Counted from the first letter of the stretch, positions 9,029 to 58,858 are shown. The stretch is DNA of 64,000 nt from Anaerolineales bacterium (GCA_919902735.1 CAKKRM010000077.1:1-64000), one strand, 5' to 3'. The notes: generated by a model from the sequence alone, not told the origin. Numbers and translations are program-made.

Positions 9029-10918
9029 TTACTCCTTCACTTCGCCATCGACAACATCAGGCCCAGCATCAGTGGATGAGCCTTCGGCTTCCGCTTCGCC
9101 CTCCGCCGACGGTTGCCCCTGCTCATAAACAGATGCGCCAATCTTTTGAATGGCCAGCCCCAACGCCTCCGTAGCGGCTTTGATCTTCTCTACATCCTCG
9201 CCCTGCGCCACAGACTTGACTTCCGCTGCCTTGGCTTCAACATCACTCCGAACTTCCACAGGAACTTTGTCACCAAATTCGCGCAATGCTTTATCGGCAG
9301 CATAGGCCGTGTTATCGGCATTATTTCGCGCTTCAATCAAATCCTTACGCTTGCGGTCTTCATCTGCATGGGCTTCCGCATCCTTGCGCATATTTTCGAC
9401 TTCGCTGTCGCTCAAGCCAGAGGATGCGGTGATCGTAATATGCTGTGAACGCCCCGTCGCCTTATCCTTTGCGCTCACTTTCAAAATGCCGTTCGCGTCC
9501 ACATCGAAGGTCACTTCAATTTGAGGGACGCCGCGCGGTGAAGGTGGAATACCATCCAAAATGAATTTACCCAACGACTTGTTATCATTCGCCATCGGAC
9601 GTTCGCCTTGCAGCACATGGATTTCAACCTGAGTCTGGTTATCGCCAGCGGTTGAAAATACCTGTGAACGGCGAGTCGGAATGGTTGTGTTGCGTTCAAT
9701 TTGAGCTGTGGCAACGCCGCCCAATGTTTCAATTGCAAGTGTAAGCGGAGCAACATCCAACAAAAGAATATCTTTGACTTCGCCGCCAAGCACGCCCGCC
9801 TGAATCGCTGCACCGATGGCAACCACTTCGTCAGGGTTGACGCCTTTGTGCGGGTCTTTGCCAAAGAAGGCGCGTACGCGGTCTTGAATGGCGGGCATTC
9901 GGGTCATACCGCCCACCAGAACAATTTCGTCGATGTTGCCAGCATTTAATCCAGCGTCAGCCAATGCCTGCTTGACAGGAGCAATCGTTCGGTCGACAAG
10001 ATCGGCTGTAATTTGTTCCAGCTTGGCGCGGGTCATGGTCATCACCAAATGTTTGGGGCCGCTTGCATCCGCCGTCAAATAAGGCAGGTTGATCTCGGTC
10101 TGCATCACCGTGGAAAGTTCGATCTTCGCTTTTTCAGAGGCTTCCTTCAAACGCTGCAAGGCCTGGCGGTCATTGTTCAGGTCAATGCCATTATCTTTCT
10201 TGAAGGTCTCGATCAAATGATCCATGATGCGCAGGTCGAAATCATCGCCGCCGAGGAAGGTATCGCCGCTCGTGGCGCGCACTTGGAACACGCCGTCACC
10301 CACATCCAAAATGGATACATCGAAAGTGCCGCCGCCGAGATCGTACACAACAATCACTTCGTTCTTCTTTTTATCAAGGCCATACGCCAGAGAAGAAGCA
10401 GTTGGCTCATTGATGATTCGCAAGACTTCAAGGCCCGCGATCTTGCCTGCATCTTTTGTGGCGTTGCGCTGCGCGTCGTTGAAGTACGCGGGGACAGTGA
10501 TGACCGCCTGCGTGATGGTTTCACCAAGATAGGCTTCCGCATCCGCCTTGATTTTTGCAAGGATCATCGCTGAAACTTCGGGCGCAGAATAATCCTTCTC
10601 GCCCAACGTCACACGCACATCGCCGTTGTCCGCGCCCTTCACGGCGTACGGCACACGCTTGCGAGTGCGTTCCACTTCGGGGTCATCGGCCTTGCGTCCC
10701 ATAAAACGCTTCACCGAGAAAATCGTATTCTGCGGATTCGTGATCGCCTGATTGCGCGCCACACGTCCCACCAAACGCTCGCCGTTCTTATTCATCGCCA
10801 CCACCGAAGGCACGAGTCTTTCACCCTCCGCAGATGGAATCACAACAGGCTCCCCGCCAGACATAACAGCGGCCACCGAGTTGGTCGTGCCAAGATCAAT
10901 TCCTATAATTTTTGCCAT
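9029..10918 (-). CDS. dnaK: Chaperone DnaK (Hsp70)
   Basis: This is the ATP-driven protein-folding chaperone of the cytoplasm. The 629-residue protein begins [18 protein letters not shown] and has the phosphate loops ([22 protein letters not shown]), the adenosine-site motif [13 protein letters not shown], the interdomain linker region [12 protein letters not shown], and the substrate-binding domain with a helical lid and acidic tail. Its length is normal. It follows grpE in the CIRCE-controlled operon, with a seven-base repeat tract (10926-10990) between them. Confidence 0.97.
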
Positions 10919-18758: not shown

Positions 18759-20546
18759 ATGCTGCAAGCGATAGAAAAAAAGGCGAGAAAGCATCGCATC
18801 AGACCCTTTTCAACCTGCCAATTGGTATCCTTTATGACCTCTGAACAAACACGCCCCCGAACCCTGCACGACCAACTGCTTGCCCTCAGCACCCAGGCGG
18901 GAAAGATTCGCACTGAGTTGGAAGCAGGCAAATCAAAACTTCCCAAAGATACAACGGAAGAACTGCGTATCCTGCAAACGTCCCTGATCCAAATGGCCGA
19001 AGGGATGGAGGTATCCCAACGCGAAAACAGCAACATGCTGGCGCTGGCCGATGTGGGACAGGTCATCAATTCATCGCTGGAACTCGATGAAGTTCTGCGC
19101 ATCGTGATGGACAACATCGTGCGCCTCACCAAGGCCGAACGCGGCTTTCTCATGCTGCGCGATGACAAAGGCCAAATGGCCATCCGCATGGGACGCAATT
19201 GGGAAATGGAATCCATCAATTCATCCGAGAAGAACGTCAGCCGCACGGTGGTACAGCGCGTGATCGACTCGGGCGAAGCCATCGTCACCACCAACGCGCA
19301 GGAAGACCAGCGCTTTTTGGGGCAGGAAAGCATCGTGGCCTTCAACCTGCGTTCCATTTTATGCGTGCCGCTTAAAGTAAAAAATGAACTCATCGGCGTG
19401 ATCTATGCCGACAACCGCATCCGCACGGGCATCTTTGCAGAGACCGAACGCGACCTGCTGGCTGCGTTTTCAAACCAGGCCGCCGTTGCCATCGAGAACG
19501 CGCGCCTGTTCTCCTCGCTCAAACAAACCCTCGAAGAAGTAACCGGCCTCAAGAACCTGATGGATAACGTCTTCGCATCCATTGCCAGCGGCGTGATCAC
19601 TGCGGATTTTCAAGACAAGGTGACGCTTGCCAACAAAGCCGCGGAAAATATCCTCGGCGCCGCTTCGATTGACATCATCGGTCATTATCTTAACGAGGCG
19701 CTTGCTTCTGTTTCGAGTGAGCTGGGTCCGCATCTGATTCAGGTCCGCGATACAGACAAAGCCATCGTAGACCTTGAGATCAGCCACATCCTCCCCAACC
19801 GCGGCGCAGTAGACTGGCGTTTGAATCTCTCTCCGCTCAAAGACGCAGGACAGAAAACCCAGGGCGTGGCGATTGTCCTCGACGACCTCACAGAACGAAA
19901 GAAGCTGGAAGCGCAGCGCCGCCTCTTCGAGCGCATGGTCTCCCCCGCTGTCATCGAACAGCTTGACCCGAACAGCCTGCAACTCGGCGGCAAACGCACA
20001 AACATCAGCGTGCTGTTCGCAGACATCCGCGGCTTCACAACCTACAGCGAAAGCCTCGCGCCAGAAAAACTGGTTTTCATTTTGAACCGCTACCTGGCCG
20101 CCATGGCCGAAGCCGTGCTCGCGCAGGAAGGCACCATCGACAAGTTCATGGGCGACGCCATCATGGCCTGGTTCAACGCCCCCGTGCCCCAGCCAGACCA
20201 TACCCTGCGAGCCGTAAAAACCGCGCTGGCCATCCGCGAATCGGTGGAGAATTTATACAAGGAACTGCCAGCCGATTCACACCTTGCCTTCGGCGTGGGC
20301 ATTCATTACGGCGACGCCGTGCTCGGTTTGATCGGCACCGAAAAACGCCTGGAATACACCGCCATCAGTGACAGCGTGAACACGGCCAAACGCATTCAGG
20401 AAAACTCTGGCAGGAACCAGATCCTCATCAGCAGGGAAGCCTACGAGCGCGTGAAAAAAGATGTGGAAGCGAAACCCCACGCAGATATGAGCGTGAAAGG
20501 CAAGACCCAGCCGATAGCGGTGTTCGAGGTGCTGGGGTTGAAGTGA
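18759..20546 (+). CDS. GAF-PAS class III adenylate/guanylate cyclase
   Basis: The order is an N-terminal helical segment, a GAF domain (about residues 75-240, with RGFLMLRDDKGQMA and ILCVPLKVKNELIGVIYADN), a PAS domain (about 255-375, ending VLDDLTERKKLEAQRR), then a class III cyclase domain (about 380-560). Metal-binding VLFADIRGFTTYSE and FMGDAIMAWFN and the catalytic YTAISDSVNTAKRIQ are intact, so it should make cAMP or cGMP. It is soluble, with no membrane segment. No clear ribosome binding site is seen; a second ATG at 18834 (MTSEQTRPRTLHDQ) is an alternative start. Confidence 0.9.
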   Translation: MLQAIEKKARKHRIRPFSTCQLVSFMTSEQTRPRTLHDQLLALSTQAGKIRTELEAGKSKLPKDTTEELRILQTSLIQMAEGMEVSQRENSNMLALADVGQVINSSLELDEVLRIVMDNIVRLTKAERGFLMLRDDKGQMAIRMGRNWEMESINSSEKNVSRTVVQRVIDSGEAIVTTNAQEDQRFLGQESIVAFNLRSILCVPLKVKNELIGVIYADNRIRTGIFAETERDLLAAFSNQAAVAIENARLFSSLKQTLEEVTGLKNLMDNVFASIASGVITADFQDKVTLANKAAENILGAASIDIIGHYLNEALASVSSELGPHLIQVRDTDKAIVDLEISHILPNRGAVDWRLNLSPLKDAGQKTQGVAIVLDDLTERKKLEAQRRLFERMVSPAVIEQLDPNSLQLGGKRTNISVLFADIRGFTTYSESLAPEKLVFILNRYLAAMAEAVLAQEGTIDKFMGDAIMAWFNAPVPQPDHTLRAVKTALAIRESVENLYKELPADSHLAFGVGIHYGDAVLGLIGTEKRLEYTAISDSVNTAKRIQENSGRNQILISREAYERVKKDVEAKPHADMSVKGKTQPIAVFEVLGLK

Positions 20547-20801: not shown

Positions 20802-23800
20802 ATGGACATTCCCCAATTGGTGATAGACGCCGCAAGAATTTTGACGCCCTTTCTGCCCTATCTTTTGAAAGGCGCAAAGACTGCCGCGCAGAAAGCGTTT
20901 GAAGAAGCGGGCCGGGAATTCGCGGAATCGGCCTGGAAGCAAGCCGAGACCTTGTGGGAAAAGGTAAAACCGAAAGCGGATGCCAGCCCCGAAACCAAAA
21001 AGGCGCTCGAACGCGTGGCCGAAAAGCCCGAAGAAAAACGCGCAAACCTGCTCGAATTTCAATTCGAGGATATGTTCAACGAAGACCCGATCTTTGCCGA
21101 GCAGGTGGAACAAATCATCCGTGCGGGAGACGGCAGCTTGGTGGTGGGCAGGGATGCAAACTACAGTAAATTTGCGATGGGGCAAAACCCGCAGGTGGCG
21201 GATACCATCATTAATATTCATCGCGAAAAGACCCCGCCCGCTTCCTTTTCCGTGGAACAGTTGACACATGAATACCTGCAAACCCTTGCCGCAGAATGTG
21301 AGAAATTGCCGCTCGGCACAATTCATGTCACCCTTGAAAAAGCCGAACACGAAGCCTCCATTTCTTTGGAGGATGTTTATATTGACCTGGACATTCGCCC
21401 TCGCACGCGCGGACAACAAAAAGAGAAAGAGATGGAAGCCGCAGAACGCGAGCCGCAGCGCATTCCCATCGCACAGGCGTTGGAAGATGAAAAATTGCGC
21501 CGCGTGGTTTTGTTGGGAGAGGCAGGTTCAGGCAAGACAACCTGCGTTCATTACCTAACGATTGCGCTTGCCGCGATTCAGCAAAATGTAATCGCGAAAA
21601 AGCCCCTGCCCAAGGATTCGACGCTGGCGCGTTATTTTCCGATCCGCCTGATTTTGCGCGACGTGACGATTCCGACAGATATAAAAACAGACGGTGTGGA
21701 TATTCTTTGGAATGCCTTGCGCGCAGACCTGGCAAAAAAAATCGGCAAAGAGCAGGCGGACCAACTCTTTCCCCATCTGCAAAAGCGCATCAAAACCACG
21801 CCCTGCCTGATTATGCTGGACGGTTTGGATGAAGTGCCAGAATCGGAAGAACGCCGCCCGCGTTTATTGGAAGCGATTGAAAATTTTGCCGCCCCTCTCA
21901 AACAAAGCATTGTGATAGTGACGGCCAGGCCCTACGCCTACGACAACCCCAAATGGCATTTGCCGCATTTTGAAATACTTGACCTGCTGGATTTCAGTTC
22001 CGAACAGATCGAGAGTTTCATTTCCCGTTTCTATGATTCCGTGCAAGTCGTGAAAAACTGGGACGACGCGCTGGTTGCATTGCGAAAAAGCGGATTAAAC
22101 GAGGCCGTCCAAAGCAGGGAATATTTATACAAACTGGCGGAACGCCCCCTGTTATTAACCCTGATCGCCTCTGTGGATAGCAGCGGCTCGCAACTACCCG
22201 AAGGCCGCGCCGAATTATACAAGGAGACCATTGACCTGTTACTGCAACGCTGGCATCGGAGAAAGGAAAACAGCGTTACCGAACAGGAAATTGTCAAGTT
22301 CTTTTCAACGGACTCCAGCAAGGTTCTTGACATCCTGCAAAAACTCGCCTACAAAGTACACGAAAGGCAGGGCCGGGAATCGAAACCCAATGAGCAGGCT
22401 CCCGCCGACATTGACAGGGACGAAATCTGGGCCGCTTTTTCCCCTTCCCTGCCGAAAGACATCGATATGGACTCGCTGTTGAACTTTTTGGAAAAACGCG
22501 CGGGGCTGCTTTTGGATCGCGGGGAAGGGATTTATGTTTTCCCGCATCGCTCTTTTCAGGAATACCTTGCCGCAGGGTTTTTGAACACGCAGTCGGACGA
22601 AAAATTTCATCTCGACGCAATCTTTCGTAGTGAATCGAAATGGTGGCGTGAAGTGGTTCTGCTTGGCATTGCCCGAATGTTGCCCAACTTAAAAAACGCC
22701 GCCGATGAAGTGAATGCGCTTGCGCCATGCGATATCGAAAAAATGGAACAGGAAATTACCCCAACCGACTGGCAAGCCGCCGCGCTGGCAGGGCAAGCCC
22801 TGCTCGAAATACGCTTGAAAGAAAAAGGCGGCGACCAGATAAAGTACAAGACCATCATCAAGCGAGTTGTAAACTGGCTCGTTCAACTGCTCGAACAAAA
22901 CGCCCTCACCCCGCGCGAACGCGCCGAAGCGGGAGATACCCTCGCCAAACTGAGTGACCCGCGCATTGGCGTAACAAACGATTTCCTTTTTTGCGAAATC
23001 CCCGCAGGCAAATTCTGGATGGGCAGCAAGGAAGGCGAGAAAGATTCTCAGAAAAGTGAAACCCCACAATTCGAGTACAACATTCCCAACAATTATTTCA
23101 TGTCGCGTTACCCGATCACCAACGCGCAATTTGACCTGTTCGTAAAAGCGGACGGGTATAAGATCGAAAATTATTGGGGCGAAGCAAAACAGGCAGGCTA
23201 TTGGAGCGCGGATGGATTCAAAGGCAGATATGATGATCAAGCCAGAAATGAGCCTGTCGATTATGGAGCGCCATTTAACTTATCCAACCATCCCGTCGTG
23301 GGCGTGACGTGGTACGAATCGGCGGCGTTTTGCAGATGGCTGACAAACCAGTTTCAAGTTTCAAGTTCCAGGTTTCAGGTTTACGACCCAAAAACTCATT
23401 CTATTTTTGAAGATGACAGTCTGAAATCCAAAATCGTCAATCGTAAATATGAAATCCGCCTGCCCACTGAAGCCGAATGGGAACAAGCTGCACGCGCAGG
23501 AAAAAATAAGCCCTACCCCTGGGACGATGAGATCACGCCCGGCCATGCAAATTATTCAGACACTCAACTCAATGTTACCAGCGCGGTGGGTGCATTTCCT
23601 TTAGGTGTGAACGGTTATGGTTTGCTCGACATGAGCGGCAATGTTTACGAATGGTGCGCCACTGAATGGCTTGACGACTACAATGATTATTTGAATAAGG
23701 AAAACAACAAGCCTGAAGGCGATGGTCTCCGTGTGTTGCGCGGGGGTTCGTTCTACTATAATGATGGGCGCGTGCGGTGCGCCTTTCGTGACTGGCTCAA

Positions 23801-23870
23801 CCCGCACTACAGGAACCACTTCATCGGTTTTCGTGTGGTGGTGTGTGCGGTGTTCTCCCATTTTTCCTAA
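20802..23870 (+). CDS. NACHT ATPase with DGR-type variable FGE domain
   Basis: I start at the ATG at 20802 (MDIPQLVIDAARILTPFLPY), which has GAGG six bases upstream; the frame opens earlier only at a TTG. The 1022-residue protein has a helical N-terminus, a glycine motif AGDGSLVVGRDANYSKFAMG (about residues 114-133), a NACHT ATPase (Walker A GEAGSGKTT near 239, Walker B LIMLDGLDEV near 340), a helical stretch, and an FGE-sulfatase/C-type-lectin-fold domain from about 731. The last 45 residues (RGGSFYYND..IGFRVVV) look like a DGR variable region. Seven-base repeats are read in frame inside the FGE domain. The next gene is avd. I infer an NLR-like sensor with a diversifiable binding face. Confidence 0.9.
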   Translation: MDIPQLVIDAARILTPFLPYLLKGAKTAAQKAFEEAGREFAESAWKQAETLWEKVKPKADASPETKKALERVAEKPEEKRANLLEFQFEDMFNEDPIFAEQVEQIIRAGDGSLVVGRDANYSKFAMGQNPQVADTIINIHREKTPPASFSVEQLTHEYLQTLAAECEKLPLGTIHVTLEKAEHEASISLEDVYIDLDIRPRTRGQQKEKEMEAAEREPQRIPIAQALEDEKLRRVVLLGEAGSGKTTCVHYLTIALAAIQQNVIAKKPLPKDSTLARYFPIRLILRDVTIPTDIKTDGVDILWNALRADLAKKIGKEQADQLFPHLQKRIKTTPCLIMLDGLDEVPESEERRPRLLEAIENFAAPLKQSIVIVTARPYAYDNPKWHLPHFEILDLLDFSSEQIESFISRFYDSVQVVKNWDDALVALRKSGLNEAVQSREYLYKLAERPLLLTLIASVDSSGSQLPEGRAELYKETIDLLLQRWHRRKENSVTEQEIVKFFSTDSSKVLDILQKLAYKVHERQGRESKPNEQAPADIDRDEIWAAFSPSLPKDIDMDSLLNFLEKRAGLLLDRGEGIYVFPHRSFQEYLAAGFLNTQSDEKFHLDAIFRSESKWWREVVLLGIARMLPNLKNAADEVNALAPCDIEKMEQEITPTDWQAAALAGQALLEIRLKEKGGDQIKYKTIIKRVVNWLVQLLEQNALTPRERAEAGDTLAKLSDPRIGVTNDFLFCEIPAGKFWMGSKEGEKDSQKSETPQFEYNIPNNYFMSRYPITNAQFDLFVKADGYKIENYWGEAKQAGYWSADGFKGRYDDQARNEPVDYGAPFNLSNHPVVGVTWYESAAFCRWLTNQFQVSSSRFQVYDPKTHSIFEDDSLKSKIVNRKYEIRLPTEAEWEQAARAGKNKPYPWDDEITPGHANYSDTQLNVTSAVGAFPLGVNGYGLLDMSGNVYEWCATEWLDDYNDYLNKENNKPEGDGLRVLRGGSFYYNDGRVRCAFRDWLNPHYRNHFIGFRVVVCAVFSHFS
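23351..23381. repeat. In-frame seven-base repeats inside the FGE domain
   Basis: Four consecutive units (gtttcaa, gtttcaa, gttccag, gtttcag) are read as QFQVSSSRFQV. They sit between CRWLTN and IRLPTEAEW, which are nearly adjacent in ordinary FGE domains. Confidence 0.8.
23742..23837 (+). other. Candidate DGR variable region (VR)
   Basis: The variable positions between the fixed RGGS and IGFRVV are encoded mostly by codons that end in C or T and could all derive from AAC or AAT by changing only A: TTC, TAC, TAT, AAT, GAT, TTT, GAC, CTC, AAC, CAC, TAC, AAC, CAC, TTC. That is the mark left by adenine-specific mutagenic retrohoming. The position at the very 3' end of an FGE/C-type-lectin gene, followed by avd, fits the class. 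No template copy was found in the window. Confidence 0.7.
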
Positions 23871-23924
23871 ACTCTGATTCTCTGGAAACTCTGAATCTCT
23901 GGCGTCTCTGATTCTTTGGGGGGT

Positions 23925-23945
23925 ATGGGGGGCTATGCCCCCCAT
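23925..23945. promoter_or_regulatory. Perfect GC hairpin between VR and avd
   Basis: ATGGGGGGC and GCCCCCCAT pair perfectly over nine bases around a three-base loop. In the Bordetella phage DGR a GC hairpin just 3' of the VR promotes retrohoming; this one sits about 85 bases past the VR. It could instead be a terminator, but no T-run follows directly (an A7-T6 block comes a few bases later). Confidence 0.55.
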
Positions 23946-23972
23946 TACTTAAAAAAATTTTTTGGAGAAACT

Positions 23973-24317
23973 ATGGCTCAAACAGAAATGCCCATCTTTA
24001 CCCGCACCTTTGATTTCCTAACCTGGCTGTTGCCCGCCACAAATCACTTCCCCACTGCGCACAGGCATACTTTTACGAAACGCCTGCTGGACGCCGCCTT
24101 TGACCTGCGCGAACAGTTGGAAGCCGCAAATCACCGTATGGGCAAGGAGCGGCTGGATTATCTCAAAGCGGCGGATGAATCTCTTGATAAAATAAGAACC
24201 TACCTGCGCCTTGCCGCAGGCTGGGCCTGGCTCAACAAGGGGCAATATTTGCATGTTTCGCAAATGGTGGCTGAAATTGGCCGCCTGCTTGGCGGTTGGA
24301 AAAAGGTAACTCAATAA
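23973..24317 (+). CDS. avd: DGR accessory variability determinant Avd
   Basis: Avd is a small four-helix-bundle protein that forms a pentamer, binds the DGR reverse transcriptase and template RNA, and is needed for mutagenic retrohoming. The 114-residue protein matches the family along its length. It has FLTWLLPATNHFPTAHRHTF in helix 1, a long helix with LLDAAFDLREQLEAA, the LDYLKAADESLDKIRTYLRL segment, and the C-terminal VAEIGRLLGGWKK, which closely parallels VAEVGRILGSW-type ends of known Avd proteins. A good ribosome binding site (GGAG, five bases) precedes the ATG. It follows the NACHT-FGE gene in the order target-hairpin-avd, but no template repeat or reverse transcriptase follows. Confidence 0.85.
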   Translation: MAQTEMPIFTRTFDFLTWLLPATNHFPTAHRHTFTKRLLDAAFDLREQLEAANHRMGKERLDYLKAADESLDKIRTYLRLAAGWAWLNKGQYLHVSQMVAEIGRLLGGWKKVTQ

Positions 24318-24369
24318 TTCACCTTACGCAATCCGCTCTGCAGGGTGGGATACTTGCCCAAAACATCTA

Positions 24370-24420
24370 ACGCAAAGACGCGAAGGCCCAAAGGGAAATA
24401 AAACTTCGCGTCTTTGCGGC
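24370..24420. repeat. Inverted repeat, CGCAAAGACGCGAAG family
   Basis: AACGCAAAGACGCGAAG and CTTCGCGTCTTTGCGG are almost perfect reverse complements around an 18-base centre. Confidence 0.8.
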
Positions 24421-24504
24421 TTGGCGTTAAAATTTTCGGCAAAGAGTTCTTCCGTGCGTAAGGTCAGTTATTAACTCACCTTACGCAGTTTTGAGAAAAA
24501 GTGA

Positions 24505-24607
24505 TGTCGTTGCGAGCCGCGCACTTGGTTTTAGCGGCGAAGCAATCTCCGAGACGGCTAGGAGATTGCTTCGGACAAAGAACAAGAGCGTCCTCGCAAC
24601 GACATAC
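24505..24607. repeat. GAAGCAATCTCC-type palindromic repeat, diverged copy
   Basis: The ends are gatgtcgttgcgag and ctcgcaacgacatac, with gaagcaatctccgag / aggagattgcttc as an inner inverted pair. Confidence 0.85.
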
Positions 24608-24643
24608 CATTACTGCGTAAGGTCAGTTAGTAATAGTAAAAAA

Positions 24644-24698
24644 CGTCCCGAAGGTTGCCGCCAGACGCTTAAATTGCTCGAAATAAACCTTCGGGACG
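24644..24698. repeat. CGTCCCGAAGG / CCTTCGGGACG inverted repeat, copy 1
   Basis: ACGTCCCGAAGGTT and AAACCTTCGGGACG are separated by about 27 bases. A second copy lies at 42453-42505. Confidence 0.8.
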
Positions 24699-24750
24699 GC
24701 GCTTGCGTCAACTGCCCACTGATCACTGATCACTGCCCACTGATCCCTTT

Positions 24751-25854
24751 TTACTTCTCACTCCCTCCCACCCTCTCCACAAACCTCACCACACTATTCA
24801 TTCCCAACTCAATCGGCTTCACATCGATAAACTCATTCACCGTATGCGCCCCGCCGCCGGTGGTGATGCCCATCACCACCGCAGGGATCCCCTCGCTCAA
24901 CGGAATATTCGCATCCGTCGAACCCGCAGTGAGGATCGCCTCCAGCCCCTGCTCCTGCGTACAATGCACCGCAAGCTGCACCATCTCATGCTCGGCAGGA
25001 ATTTCACCCGCAGGCCGCTCCCCGATCACCTCCGCCGTGATCTTGACCCCCTCGCGGCTCGCCTTCACCAGCACATCCTCCACTTGATGAACGAGCTTCG
25101 CAAGGGTGGCTGGTTCCTCCGAGCGCAAATCCAATTCACATTTTGCCTCTGCCGCCAGCACATTTATTCCCGTCCCTCCGACAATTGTGCCGATGTTCAT
25201 CGTGGTGCGCGGCTCGCGCGGCAAACGGATGGATGTCAACTGCGTCACCAGCGCGGCCAGTTCATGCACCGCCGAAGGCTGGCCGTAGTCCGACCATGAA
25301 TGTCCGCCCGCCGTCTTCGCCGTAATTCGATAACGCTTCACCCCAATCGCGCGATGATAAACGTGCCCAAGCGCCAGCCCCTCCAGCACAAAATAGCCAA
25401 GGATGTCCGCGCCAAAACGCTCCACCACGCCGCGCATCCCGCGCAGGTCGCCAAGCCCCTCCTCGCCCACATTCGCCACAAACCACACATCCTGCCTGAG
25501 CACAATCTCTCTTTCACGCAGCGACCAGAGAATGCCAAACAACGCCGCCACACCGATGGAATTATCCCCAATCCCCGGTGCGATGACGCGCTGCGCTTCT
25601 CTCCTAATCTGCAAGTTGATACTCGGCGGAAATACGGTATCCAAATGAGCAGTTACCACCAACTCTTTGGCCTTTTTCTGTTTCCCCGGCAGCCGCGCAA
25701 AGACATTCCCCAGTGAATCCATGGAAACATCTTTGAGTTTCTCCTTCAAGAAAAGATCACGCACAAATTCAGCGCGCGGCCCCTCCGCAAAAGTGGGCGC
25801 AGCGATCTGCTGAATTTGAATGGCAAGGTCGAGGATTTTGTCTGTGAGTGTCAT
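24751..25854 (-). CDS. M20-family metallopeptidase
   Basis: This is a zinc amidohydrolase/peptidase of the M20 group (peptidase T or carboxypeptidase G2-like). Metal ligands and catalytic residues are visible: His and Asp in TAHLDTVFPP, Asp in GIGDNSIGVAAL, the Glu-Glu pair in VGEEGLGDLRG, and a C-terminal His in GGAHTVNEF. The 367-residue protein has the inserted dimerisation domain (GGHSWSDYGQPSAVHELAAL). It has no signal peptide, so it probably acts on cytoplasmic peptides; the exact substrate is not evident. It converges with avd across the repeat cluster. Confidence 0.88.
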   Translation of the reverse strand: MTLTDKILDLAIQIQQIAAPTFAEGPRAEFVRDLFLKEKLKDVSMDSLGNVFARLPGKQKKAKELVVTAHLDTVFPPSINLQIRREAQRVIAPGIGDNSIGVAALFGILWSLREREIVLRQDVWFVANVGEEGLGDLRGMRGVVERFGADILGYFVLEGLALGHVYHRAIGVKRYRITAKTAGGHSWSDYGQPSAVHELAALVTQLTSIRLPREPRTTMNIGTIVGGTGINVLAAEAKCELDLRSEEPATLAKLVHQVEDVLVKASREGVKITAEVIGERPAGEIPAEHEMVQLAVHCTQEQGLEAILTAGSTDANIPLSEGIPAVVMGITTGGGAHTVNEFIDVKPIELGMNSVVRFVERVGGSEK

Positions 25855-56224: not shown

Positions 56225-58858
56225 TTAGACAACCTTCGGCGCGATCACCACGCGAAAGCCGAGATCATCATTGAACATGAGCGGGATGGACCAGTTGCAA
56301 AACGATGAACGCGCAAACCATTGATACCCGATCCACGACCCGCCGCGCACGATGCGGTATTTTTTATCTTCATCGTACCACGAGCCTGTCCATTCCCAAA
56401 CGTTGCCGCTCATATCCCAGGCATCCGTTGGGCTGACGCCCTGTGGAAACGTGCAGACCACGGTGGTGCCGCCCAGCCCCGAGCCTGTCGAGTCGCTGTC
56501 CCAGGTATTGGCGGCGGCTTTATCAAAGCCTTCGCCCCAGGGATACTCGCTGCCATGGTCTCCCCTTGCGGCGCGTTCCCATTCATCATCGCGCGGCAGG
56601 CGGATGGTGTAGCCCTCCGGCACAGCCACGATCTTTTTCGCAAGCCAGCTGCAATAGGCCTGCGCTTCATACCAACTGACTCCCACCACCGGCACAATTG
56701 GGTTGCTCAACTCGATGTTATGCCAGTAATAAGGCATGTTGCGTTTTGCAAGCGGACGATGCTCCAGCCAATCCCGCGAGACGGCTTCCATTGTGCGCGC
56801 ATCATATTTTCCGGTGCGCCACTCCCAGCCTTCGTCGCTCCAAAATTCGCGGGTCTGGTATCCGTCCTCTTTGACGAAGCGGGCATACTGGATGTTGGTA
56901 ACTTGATATTTGCCGATGAAATACATATATGGGATTTCTCGCGCTTCTTTCTTAACCCCGGCCTGATACTCACCAGCAGGCACTTCCACAAACCGATCCA
57001 GGTCGCCGGGCCGCCAGCCAAGCCGCCCCAACAGCAGGCCTGCGTGTCTTCGTATCTCCGGGCGGATGCTGCTGCCCTGCATAGTGGTGACCAAAGATTG
57101 CGTAACGTGTTCCTTGCTCTGCAAAGGAACGCCGCCCGGCCATGTATCCAACACGGCATCGCCGGCCAGCACAACCGCTTCACCGGGGGGGCCAGGTTGA
57201 CGGTCCACCAGCGCTTCCACAACTTCACCGGACACCTTTGGCAGTTGCTGGCGAATGCCAAGATAGCCGATGGTGAGCAGGGTCACTTCACGCCAGGCCT
57301 GCTCCCCCACATGCTGGGAAAGAGTCTCGATGATCGGCGTAGAGTTACCCTGTCCCTTTAAAGCAAGCGCAACAGCGGCGAGATATTCTTCAAAAGTCAG
57401 GTGAATGAATCCATATTCACCTGGCCCGCGCTCCAAAAGGATGGCGGCGTGATCGTGCACATCGGTAAGAAATTGGCGCGCAGCCTGATGCGGTGACGGG
57501 TCGCCGCGTTCCAGAAAAAGCTCCTCCAATTTGCGGCGCATGTCTTCGCGCCCCACCAGCCCAACCCCAGGGCTGACTTCGTGCATCCACAACGCCAGCG
57601 GCGCAAGGATGCGGATCGTTTGGATCTCGTCGATGTCGCGTCCGGGCGCGCGTCCGCTGATACTGCGGGCGCGATTCCAGGTGGAAAGCAAAGTGTTTAC
57701 ATATTGGTCGTAGAGCTGCACACGGCGTTCGGGCAGTGACACACCCTGCCGTTTCATCAACGCAAGAATGGTGAGCAGTAATGGCGTGGATGCCAGTTGC
57801 CGCACGCCGGGGTTTTGTTGAATGGCGTCCAGAAGTTCGCGGCGGTCTGTTTCAGCGTCGGCGCGGGCTACGGCGGTATTCCCTTGCGCCTGTTTTTCAA
57901 GGGCAGTTGTCCAATGCCCCACAAATTCCTCGATCTCATCCTCTTCGAAATCGACGATGGTACATTCCACCAAATCCTCCGCCGAGGGACGCACGGCGCG
58001 ATACCCAACCACGCGGCTGGTGAGAACGAACTTATTGCCCTCGCGGCGGTGGAAAGCGAAGAAGTCCACCACGCGCTCGACTACTGTGTTGCGCATGTTC
58101 AAATCGCGGACTTCATCGAGACCGTCCAGCAAAATCAACGCCCGCCCGGCTTTGAGCGCTTCATGCAGCATGGGGCCCACCGGCAAATCCGCGCCGATGC
58201 CGTCAAAATATTCGGCGATGAAATCATCCAAACGAATATCGCGGGTTTGCAGTGAATTTGCAAAAGCCGCCAGAGGCAGAAGGATGGGCAGAAAATCATC
58301 CAACCCAATCATTTGCCCCTCTCCGCGGGCAAGGCGCAGCGCCAGATATTTTACAAAAGTGGTTTTCCCGGCTCCGGGGTCTCCCAGCACGATCACGCCG
58401 GAATGTTTTTGTAATACATCCAAAAGCGGAACGGGATCCCCAAAGTGAAGGAGTTCCTGGTCATGGTCGGTGATTTCGCGCCCGGCCAGGCTGAGGTCGC
58501 GCTTCCATGTATCGCCTTCGGGAAGTTCCATGCGCGCCTTGAGCGGAACGTACAAGTCGAGCAGTTTTAATTTAAGCGGAACACGGTCTGAAACCCCCAT
58601 GCCTTTCATGCTGAGGTAATAATGGCGGTCGGTCAGGTAGTTGAGATATGCCGCAGTGGACTCCCGAATCGTCTCGGCTGGCAGAGCAGGCTGAAGGTCC
58701 CGCCAGAAGCGATCTGCAAGCACAATGGTCTGCCCGTGGATAATGGCGCTGTCTGTCACAGCCCCGCCGATGGCAATGCTCTGGTCGCCTGCCTGTATTT
58801 CCATCTCAGATTTTGTTTGTTTGGTGGTTTTTTTAGGGGGTGTTCTTTTTTCGGTCAT
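56225..58858 (-). CDS. NACHT ATPase with FGE domain, second copy
   Basis: The 877-residue protein has a lysine-rich start, the glycine motif AGDQSIAIGGAVTDSAIIHG (residues 23-42), a NACHT ATPase (Walker A LGDPGAGKTT, 158-167; Walker B LILLDGLDEV, 241-250), helical repeats, and a C-terminal FGE-sulfatase/C-type-lectin-fold domain from about 635. The FGE part has SWYEAQAYCSWLAKK, RLPRDDEWERAARGDHGSEYPWGE, WDMSGNVWEWTG and a tail RGGSWIGYQWF..LGFRVV. The FGE catalytic cysteines of sulfatase activation are missing, so a binding role is likely. It may be a second DGR target (see 56255-56344). Confidence 0.9.
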   Translation of the reverse strand: MTEKRTPPKKTTKQTKSEMEIQAGDQSIAIGGAVTDSAIIHGQTIVLADRFWRDLQPALPAETIRESTAAYLNYLTDRHYYLSMKGMGVSDRVPLKLKLLDLYVPLKARMELPEGDTWKRDLSLAGREITDHDQELLHFGDPVPLLDVLQKHSGVIVLGDPGAGKTTFVKYLALRLARGEGQMIGLDDFLPILLPLAAFANSLQTRDIRLDDFIAEYFDGIGADLPVGPMLHEALKAGRALILLDGLDEVRDLNMRNTVVERVVDFFAFHRREGNKFVLTSRVVGYRAVRPSAEDLVECTIVDFEEDEIEEFVGHWTTALEKQAQGNTAVARADAETDRRELLDAIQQNPGVRQLASTPLLLTILALMKRQGVSLPERRVQLYDQYVNTLLSTWNRARSISGRAPGRDIDEIQTIRILAPLALWMHEVSPGVGLVGREDMRRKLEELFLERGDPSPHQAARQFLTDVHDHAAILLERGPGEYGFIHLTFEEYLAAVALALKGQGNSTPIIETLSQHVGEQAWREVTLLTIGYLGIRQQLPKVSGEVVEALVDRQPGPPGEAVVLAGDAVLDTWPGGVPLQSKEHVTQSLVTTMQGSSIRPEIRRHAGLLLGRLGWRPGDLDRFVEVPAGEYQAGVKKEAREIPYMYFIGKYQVTNIQYARFVKEDGYQTREFWSDEGWEWRTGKYDARTMEAVSRDWLEHRPLAKRNMPYYWHNIELSNPIVPVVGVSWYEAQAYCSWLAKKIVAVPEGYTIRLPRDDEWERAARGDHGSEYPWGEGFDKAAANTWDSDSTGSGLGGTTVVCTFPQGVSPTDAWDMSGNVWEWTGSWYDEDKKYRIVRGGSWIGYQWFARSSFCNWSIPLMFNDDLGFRVVIAPKVV
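56255..56344 (-). other. Possible second DGR variable region
   Basis: Between RGGS and GFRVV most variable codons end in C or T and could derive from AAC/AAT/ATC by changing A only (ATC, TAT, TTT, TTT, TGC, AAC, TCC, ATC, CTC, TTC, AAT, GAT, GAT, CTC). The support is weaker than for 23742-23837: no avd is nearby, and ordinary FGE domains share the RGGS..GFRV frame. Confidence 0.45.

Follow-up and report, generated by a model that had tools for sequence, protein, structure and literature searches.

We describe a locus in an Anaerolineales bacterium that is best explained as an ordinary cellular diversity-generating retroelement (DGR) that lost its template repeat (TR) and reverse transcriptase (RT), so that an NLR-like sensor, now frozen, and an orphaned Avd remain; we put the probability of this reading at roughly 0.77. 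The locus lies in a 64,000-nucleotide stretch of DNA (GCA_919902735.1 CAKKRM010000077.1:1-64000, here called the window) from a MAG of 356 contigs that is 96% complete. The tail of a NACHT-FGE gene in the window carries an adenine footprint, relatives have complete DGRs in syntenic position, and both a cognate TR and an intact RT are absent from the assembly. Features are listed in Table 1.

Table 1. Features of the locus and its flanks, in window coordinates
Feature	Position	Strand	Description or evidence
Cyclase gene, left flank, outside the DGR	18759..20546	+	Synteny with relatives
NACHT-FGE target gene	20802..23870	+	STAND/NLR-like NTPase with C-terminal FGE (C-type-lectin-type) domain; 1022 aa, intact
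Former variable repeat (VR)	23729..23848	+	Changes in conserved-A versus conserved non-A columns against relatives' TRs
GC hairpin between VR and avd	23925..23945	+	ATGGGGGGC-TAT-GCCCCCCAT; fold z -2.6 versus shuffles
avd	23973..24317	+	Intact, 114 aa; no RT adjoining
TR/RT site of syntenic relatives	24318..24750	.	Repeats only in the window; TR and RT of G052 stand there
MITE-like repeat A	24319..24474	.	Begins right after the avd stop codon; inverted ends
MITE-like repeat B	24468..24633	.	Overlaps end of A; inverted arms 24468-24489/24612-24633; long hairpin, z -10.3
Short dispersed hairpin repeat	24644..24698	.	CGTCCCGAAGGTT...AACCTTCGGGACG
Peptidase gene, right flank, outside the DGR	24751..25854	-	Orthologue flanks complete DGR in G052, L144 and L146; convergent with avd

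The target protein matches NACHT over the Pfam cut-off at residues 233-410 and FGE-sulfatase (PF03781) at residues 732-1013 of 1022; as a candidate antiviral NACHT/STAND NTPase it gave only a weak PADLOC match. The VR is C-terminal, within the C-type-lectin/FGE domain. We compared this tail (RGGSFYYNDGRVRCAFRDWLNPHYRNHFIGFRVV) with eight TRs from relatives with complete DGRs, counting a column as conserved if at least all but one of the eight TRs agreed on the base. The window tail differed at 12 of 22 conserved-adenine columns and at 2 of 45 conserved non-adenine columns (p=6.8e-6); against the TR of genome G033 alone, 20/37 adenines and 15/107 other positions were changed (p=3.7e-6). When each TR was compared with the remaining TRs in a leave-one-out control, the adenine excess was absent (p 0.16-1). 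At positions where relatives' TRs read AAC or AAT, the window codons are TAC, TAT, CGC, GAC, CTC, CAC, TAC, AAC, CAC and TTC, with the third position kept. A non-DGR FGE paralogue from the same genome (contig C82) gave 12/22 conserved-adenine versus 18/45 other columns (p=0.3), and the tail of a second NACHT-FGE gene in the window (56246-58807), likewise no DGR target, set against the DGR TRs, gave 13/22 versus 11/45 (p=0.0075); in both paralogues numerous non-adenine columns were changed too. The adenine-biased differences from related TRs indicate that the target gene was rewritten through adenine-specific mutagenesis, and the tail is a true DGR variable repeat. The initial annotation had proposed, from the sequence alone, a NACHT-FGE gene with a DGR-like variable tail, which the Pfam domains and the footprint bear out.

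The second NACHT-FGE protein of the window, encoded on the minus strand, is ~30% identical to the target, and many genomes of the genus encode an orthologue of it. Its gene has neither an avd match nor an RT match beside it.

The hairpin that follows the target is followed by an A/T tract. A similar hairpin and A/T tract occupy the same place in G033, and a different hairpin is found there in G052 and G058. The product of the next gene scores 87.5 bits against NCBIfam NF033474, 'diversity-generating retroelement protein Avd' (curated cut-off 80), exceeds the cut-off for bAvd (PF22296) and matches the PHROG 'Avd protein of DGR'; we rejected a TTG start at 23916 in favor of the ATG at 23973. Both the GC hairpin and the gene matching Avd along its length had been called beforehand, and both calls held up, the hairpin by its fold score against shuffles and the gene by these profile matches. 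The window Avd is 85-88% identical to the Avds of complete DGRs L144, L145/G033 and L146. Its dN/dS against Avds of complete DGRs is ~0.06, the same value as among those Avds, and because dS is saturated this is weak evidence, which would fit recent RT loss and, with lower probability, a role that Avd has kept. Other bAvd matches in the genome (C180, C79 and C58) were set aside as generic four-helix-bundle proteins beside unrelated genes.

Between avd and the peptidase gene (24318-24750) we found neither an RT nor a TR, and no remnant of either above dinucleotide-shuffled sequence, except at the peptidase-side junction common to G052. This search confirmed the annotators' view that avd is followed by short repeats and then a peptidase gene, with no TR or RT. 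Repeat A (156 bp) has, among scored matches, ~24 further copies in the genome at 96-99% identity, and repeat B ~15 at 82-99%, again among scored matches. Families A and B often stand side by side in the genome, with their inverted ends joined. A match to L144 within the gap was considered as an RT remnant and rejected, being a dispersed hairpin repeat. In G052, a hairpin similar to the one at 24644-24698 lies between TR and RT.

The cassette is flanked by what is presumably a GAF/PAS adenylate-cyclase-like gene on the left and by what we take to be an M20-type peptidase gene on the right, both products being assigned from sequence. At the identical chromosomal site, G052 (contig C4), of the same genus, has a complete DGR comprising NACHT-FGE, avd, TR and RT. 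Gene order there is transglutaminase, cyclase, NACHT-FGE, avd, TR, RT, peptidase, kinase; the window has this order minus TR and RT, with flanks ~90% identical in DNA, and both G052 elements (TR, L097:8634-8767; RT, L097:9175-10272) stand between avd and the peptidase gene. The G052 DGR resembles the window in its flanks, its target family (78% identity; the G033 and G042 orthologues are 72% and 60% identical) and its order up to avd, but differs in that TR and an intact RT are present and its Avd belongs to another lineage, ~50% identical to that of the window. Complete DGRs with the same neighbors on both sides also occur in L144 (JABWAU010000024.1) and L146 (JAJTXU010000055.1), GTDB contigs from Anaerolineales MAGs of other lineages. 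The RT adjoins the peptidase orthologue in G005 and likewise in G043, whose cassette is divided between the ends of two contigs. Across most of the genus, the cyclase gene directly neighbors the peptidase gene, with <400 bp between them and no DGR (the sequences of nine such gaps were included). Given complete DGRs in some relatives and a bare site in most of the genus, this is a site where NACHT-FGE DGRs come and go.

Target DNA is ~90% identical to that of G052 across 21350-22850, yet the VR and avd are closer to G033 than to G052. Together with the two divergent Avd lineages, this shows exchange of the 3' part of the cassette at the cyclase/peptidase site, and so a mosaic history. On another contig, L147 (CAILYI010000191.1), the single TR of a DGR matches the VRs of two targets on the same contig (3138 and 6558), and a third NACHT-FGE-like gene lies at 9159.

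RT-less loci were also found elsewhere. In G058, from another genus, the avd behind the target breaks off near residue 64. Next comes WSLRRAILNL*, directly before the peptidase gene; it matches the end of relatives' RTs (WRLRxAILN) and represents the last ten RT codons. This is an independent deletion that ran from avd into the last RT codons and left a scar. In G011 (L106, G011:C20) and G053 (L105, G053:C335) the target stands alone and inverted at the cyclase/peptidase site, without avd there. The G011 assembly has no RT match at all, and the tail of its target keeps an adenine excess (11/22) with more non-adenine change (5/45). Trans service of the RT-less targets in G058 and G053 was considered, and no TR of their RT loci matches either target; this speaks against it in G053, whereas the G058 comparison covers only as much of the RT locus as its contig holds, which ends near the RT. 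Across 121 genomes, avd matches lacking an RT match on the same contig were those of the window, the truncated G058:C14, G043:C198 and G058:C11, which sit at contig ends, and G079:C107, which is marginal (26% identity), so that, of the copies found without an RT, the window avd is the sole intact one not at the end of a contig. The presumed loss of TR and RT from the window is well supported by the complete DGRs at the same site and by the independent, scarred deletion in G058.

A second DGR is present in the same genome at C201 (L002, G000:C201; 2223-5862), in the order target, RT, avd, TR. Its target combines a TIR-type domain (PADLOC and NCBIfam matches), a region resembling a coiled coil, and an FGE domain that bears the VR. 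TR and VR differ at 12 of 35 adenines and 1 of 82 other sites, so this DGR was recently active. The reading frame of its RT is interrupted ahead of the catalytic YVDD by an in-frame TAG (L002:4773), which lies within an insert of 24 nt. The insert (L002:4755-4778) is also found at the homologous place in the RT of L160 (G005:C59), the two RTs being otherwise rather different; it reads PSTGSG*G in C201, where the asterisk is the TAG, and is open in G005 (PSTGSGQG).

With 23 mismatches at 70 non-adenine positions, the TR of C201 was rejected as the source of the window VR, and the C201 DGR cannot obviously serve the window target. No RT was found on the window contig, and a DGR RT query returned no further RT in the assembly above chance, whole or fragmentary, besides that of C201. 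No cognate TR was recovered from the 96%-complete assembly either by BLAST of the VR or by a pattern search with the adenine-free 5' part of the VR, allowing 3 mismatches. Apart from the VR itself, the matches were to C82, another FGE gene, and to C144, a DAHP-synthase-like gene at a contig end, neither of them a TR. The annotation had suggested looking through the genome for a group-II-like DGR RT and an AAC-rich near-copy of 23742-23850; this yielded the TAG-interrupted C201 RT alone and no cognate TR. It had also left two choices, a cassette that depends on a DGR elsewhere in the genome or a DGR whose RT has been lost. The syntenic complete DGRs and the G058 scar favor loss, and the C201 stop codon and TR mismatches speak against trans service.

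The main rival to loss is an artefact of assembly or binning, in which TR and RT truly lie between avd and the peptidase gene and the contig was joined across repeats, leaving a 1.7-kb piece unbinned. It is the main rival because the gap consists of high-copy repeats, where an assembler could misjoin: repeats A and B have the ~24 and ~15 further copies noted among scored matches, those of A near-identical, and a copy of repeat A forms the very start of at least one contig (C177), so such repeats do break contigs. Structural variants with an intact RT have been reported at loci broken in the reference (Dore et al., PMC10907252), and in a MAG of this fragmentation and completeness a small unbinned contig may carry TR and RT. 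Avd, moreover, shows no relaxed selection, unlike the expectation for a protein whose partner is long dead, dS being saturated in this comparison. We nevertheless consider an artefact unlikely, given that a second RT, whole or partial, was not found anywhere in the assembly, that read pairs could bridge the 156 bp of repeat A, that most copies of B differ from that of the window by several per cent, and that G058 shows real loss to occur at this site.

That target and avd form a remote cassette on which the C201 RT, or an unseen RT and TR, acts in trans is very unlikely. A DGR RT and TR do exist at C201, trans diversification has been reported for Thiohalocapsa PB-PSB1 (PMC10907252), and Avd is intact and conserved; against this, the C201 TR matches its own VR at all but 1 of 82 non-adenine sites and fails at 23 of 70 in the window VR, the C201 RT is interrupted before YVDD, and no other TR was found in the assembly. 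The orphan Avd might instead be kept by selection because it acts with the NACHT-FGE protein or its DNA in a way that needs no RT, which would agree with the intact frame and with a dN/dS like that among Avds of complete DGRs. We regard it as highly improbable, as nearly all other avd copies in the 121 genomes lie beside an RT, a recent loss of the RT accounts for these observations as well, the avd of G058 became truncated once its RT was gone, and the G011 and G053 targets have no avd at the site. That Avd and the frozen receptor are selected without a local RT and TR, or that target and Avd form a portable cassette borrowing RT and TR from an unassembled DGR, is in our view quite unlikely. 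There is next to no chance that target and avd have an origin other than a DGR, with a NACHT-FGE gene having come to lie beside a gene for a four-helix-bundle (23S IVP-like) protein by accident. Proteins of that superfamily unrelated to DGRs do occur at C180, C79 and C58, but the window Avd exceeds a curated cut-off and is 85-88% identical to Avds of complete DGRs, and chance is already contradicted by the adenine footprint in the VR and by the complete DGRs at the same site in L144 and L146.

Under the preferred reading, in which a DGR was stripped of TR and RT, the ancestral locus would have been arranged as G052 is today, with the NACHT-FGE target followed by avd, TR and RT. While it was intact, and by analogy with known DGRs, RT and Avd would have made adenine-mutated cDNA from TR RNA, and this cDNA would have taken the place of the VR. 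Some dozen ligand-facing residues in the FGE (C-type-lectin) sensor would have been altered in this way. That sensor would sit on an NLR-like NTPase, a role suggested by the NLR-like architecture and by Dore et al. (PMC10907252). In the window lineage TR and RT would then have been deleted, with MITE-like repeats now filling the gap. Deletion of TR and RT would have frozen the last-written VR, so that the NACHT-FGE protein may persist as a fixed sensor and Avd without a partner. The intact avd, its dN/dS of ~0.06 and the clean third codon positions suggest that the deletion was recent. The annotation's description of a somatically variable recognition protein would probably apply to the ancestor; the present copy, without a TR or an intact RT, looks frozen.

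The DGR of Bordetella phage BPP-1 has a VR ending a CLec-type target, a downstream hairpin, avd next to the target and an adenine-specific footprint; it is phage-borne and complete, and its target is a tail-fibre adhesin. The window locus is like it in VR position, hairpin, avd and footprint, whereas the BPP-1 DGR is complete and phage-borne. Closer in architecture are the STAND/NACHT NTPase and CLec/FGE targets of DGRs in multicellular bacteria, filamentous chloroflexi being named among their hosts (Dore et al. 2024, PMC10907252; Kaur et al. 2020, PMC7159879). Like the window target, these fuse a central NACHT NTPase to a C-terminal FGE/CLec domain with the VR; the window differs in having no TR or RT. 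FGE domains and DGRs have been discussed in conflict systems (PMC7159879), and NACHT/STAND-FGE targets, service in trans, and DGR loci that are incomplete or carry MITE-like repeats have all been described (PMC10907252). Incomplete loci of Thiohalocapsa PB-PSB1 (PMC10907252) resemble the window locus in their disrupted local RT and TR and in their MITE-like repeats; some of their targets agree with a remote TR at every non-adenine site and undergo diversification in trans, whereas a TR matching the window VR is absent from the assembly.

The window locus is a further, degraded member of these described systems, and its individual parts are already in the literature. What is useful is the graded series at a single chromosomal site in related genomes: no DGR in most genomes, a complete DGR, target plus avd, target plus cut avd with an RT scar, and target alone. 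This series lets one ask what becomes of an NLR-like sensor that was hypervariable after its diversification has ended, and if a single frozen specificity stays useful.
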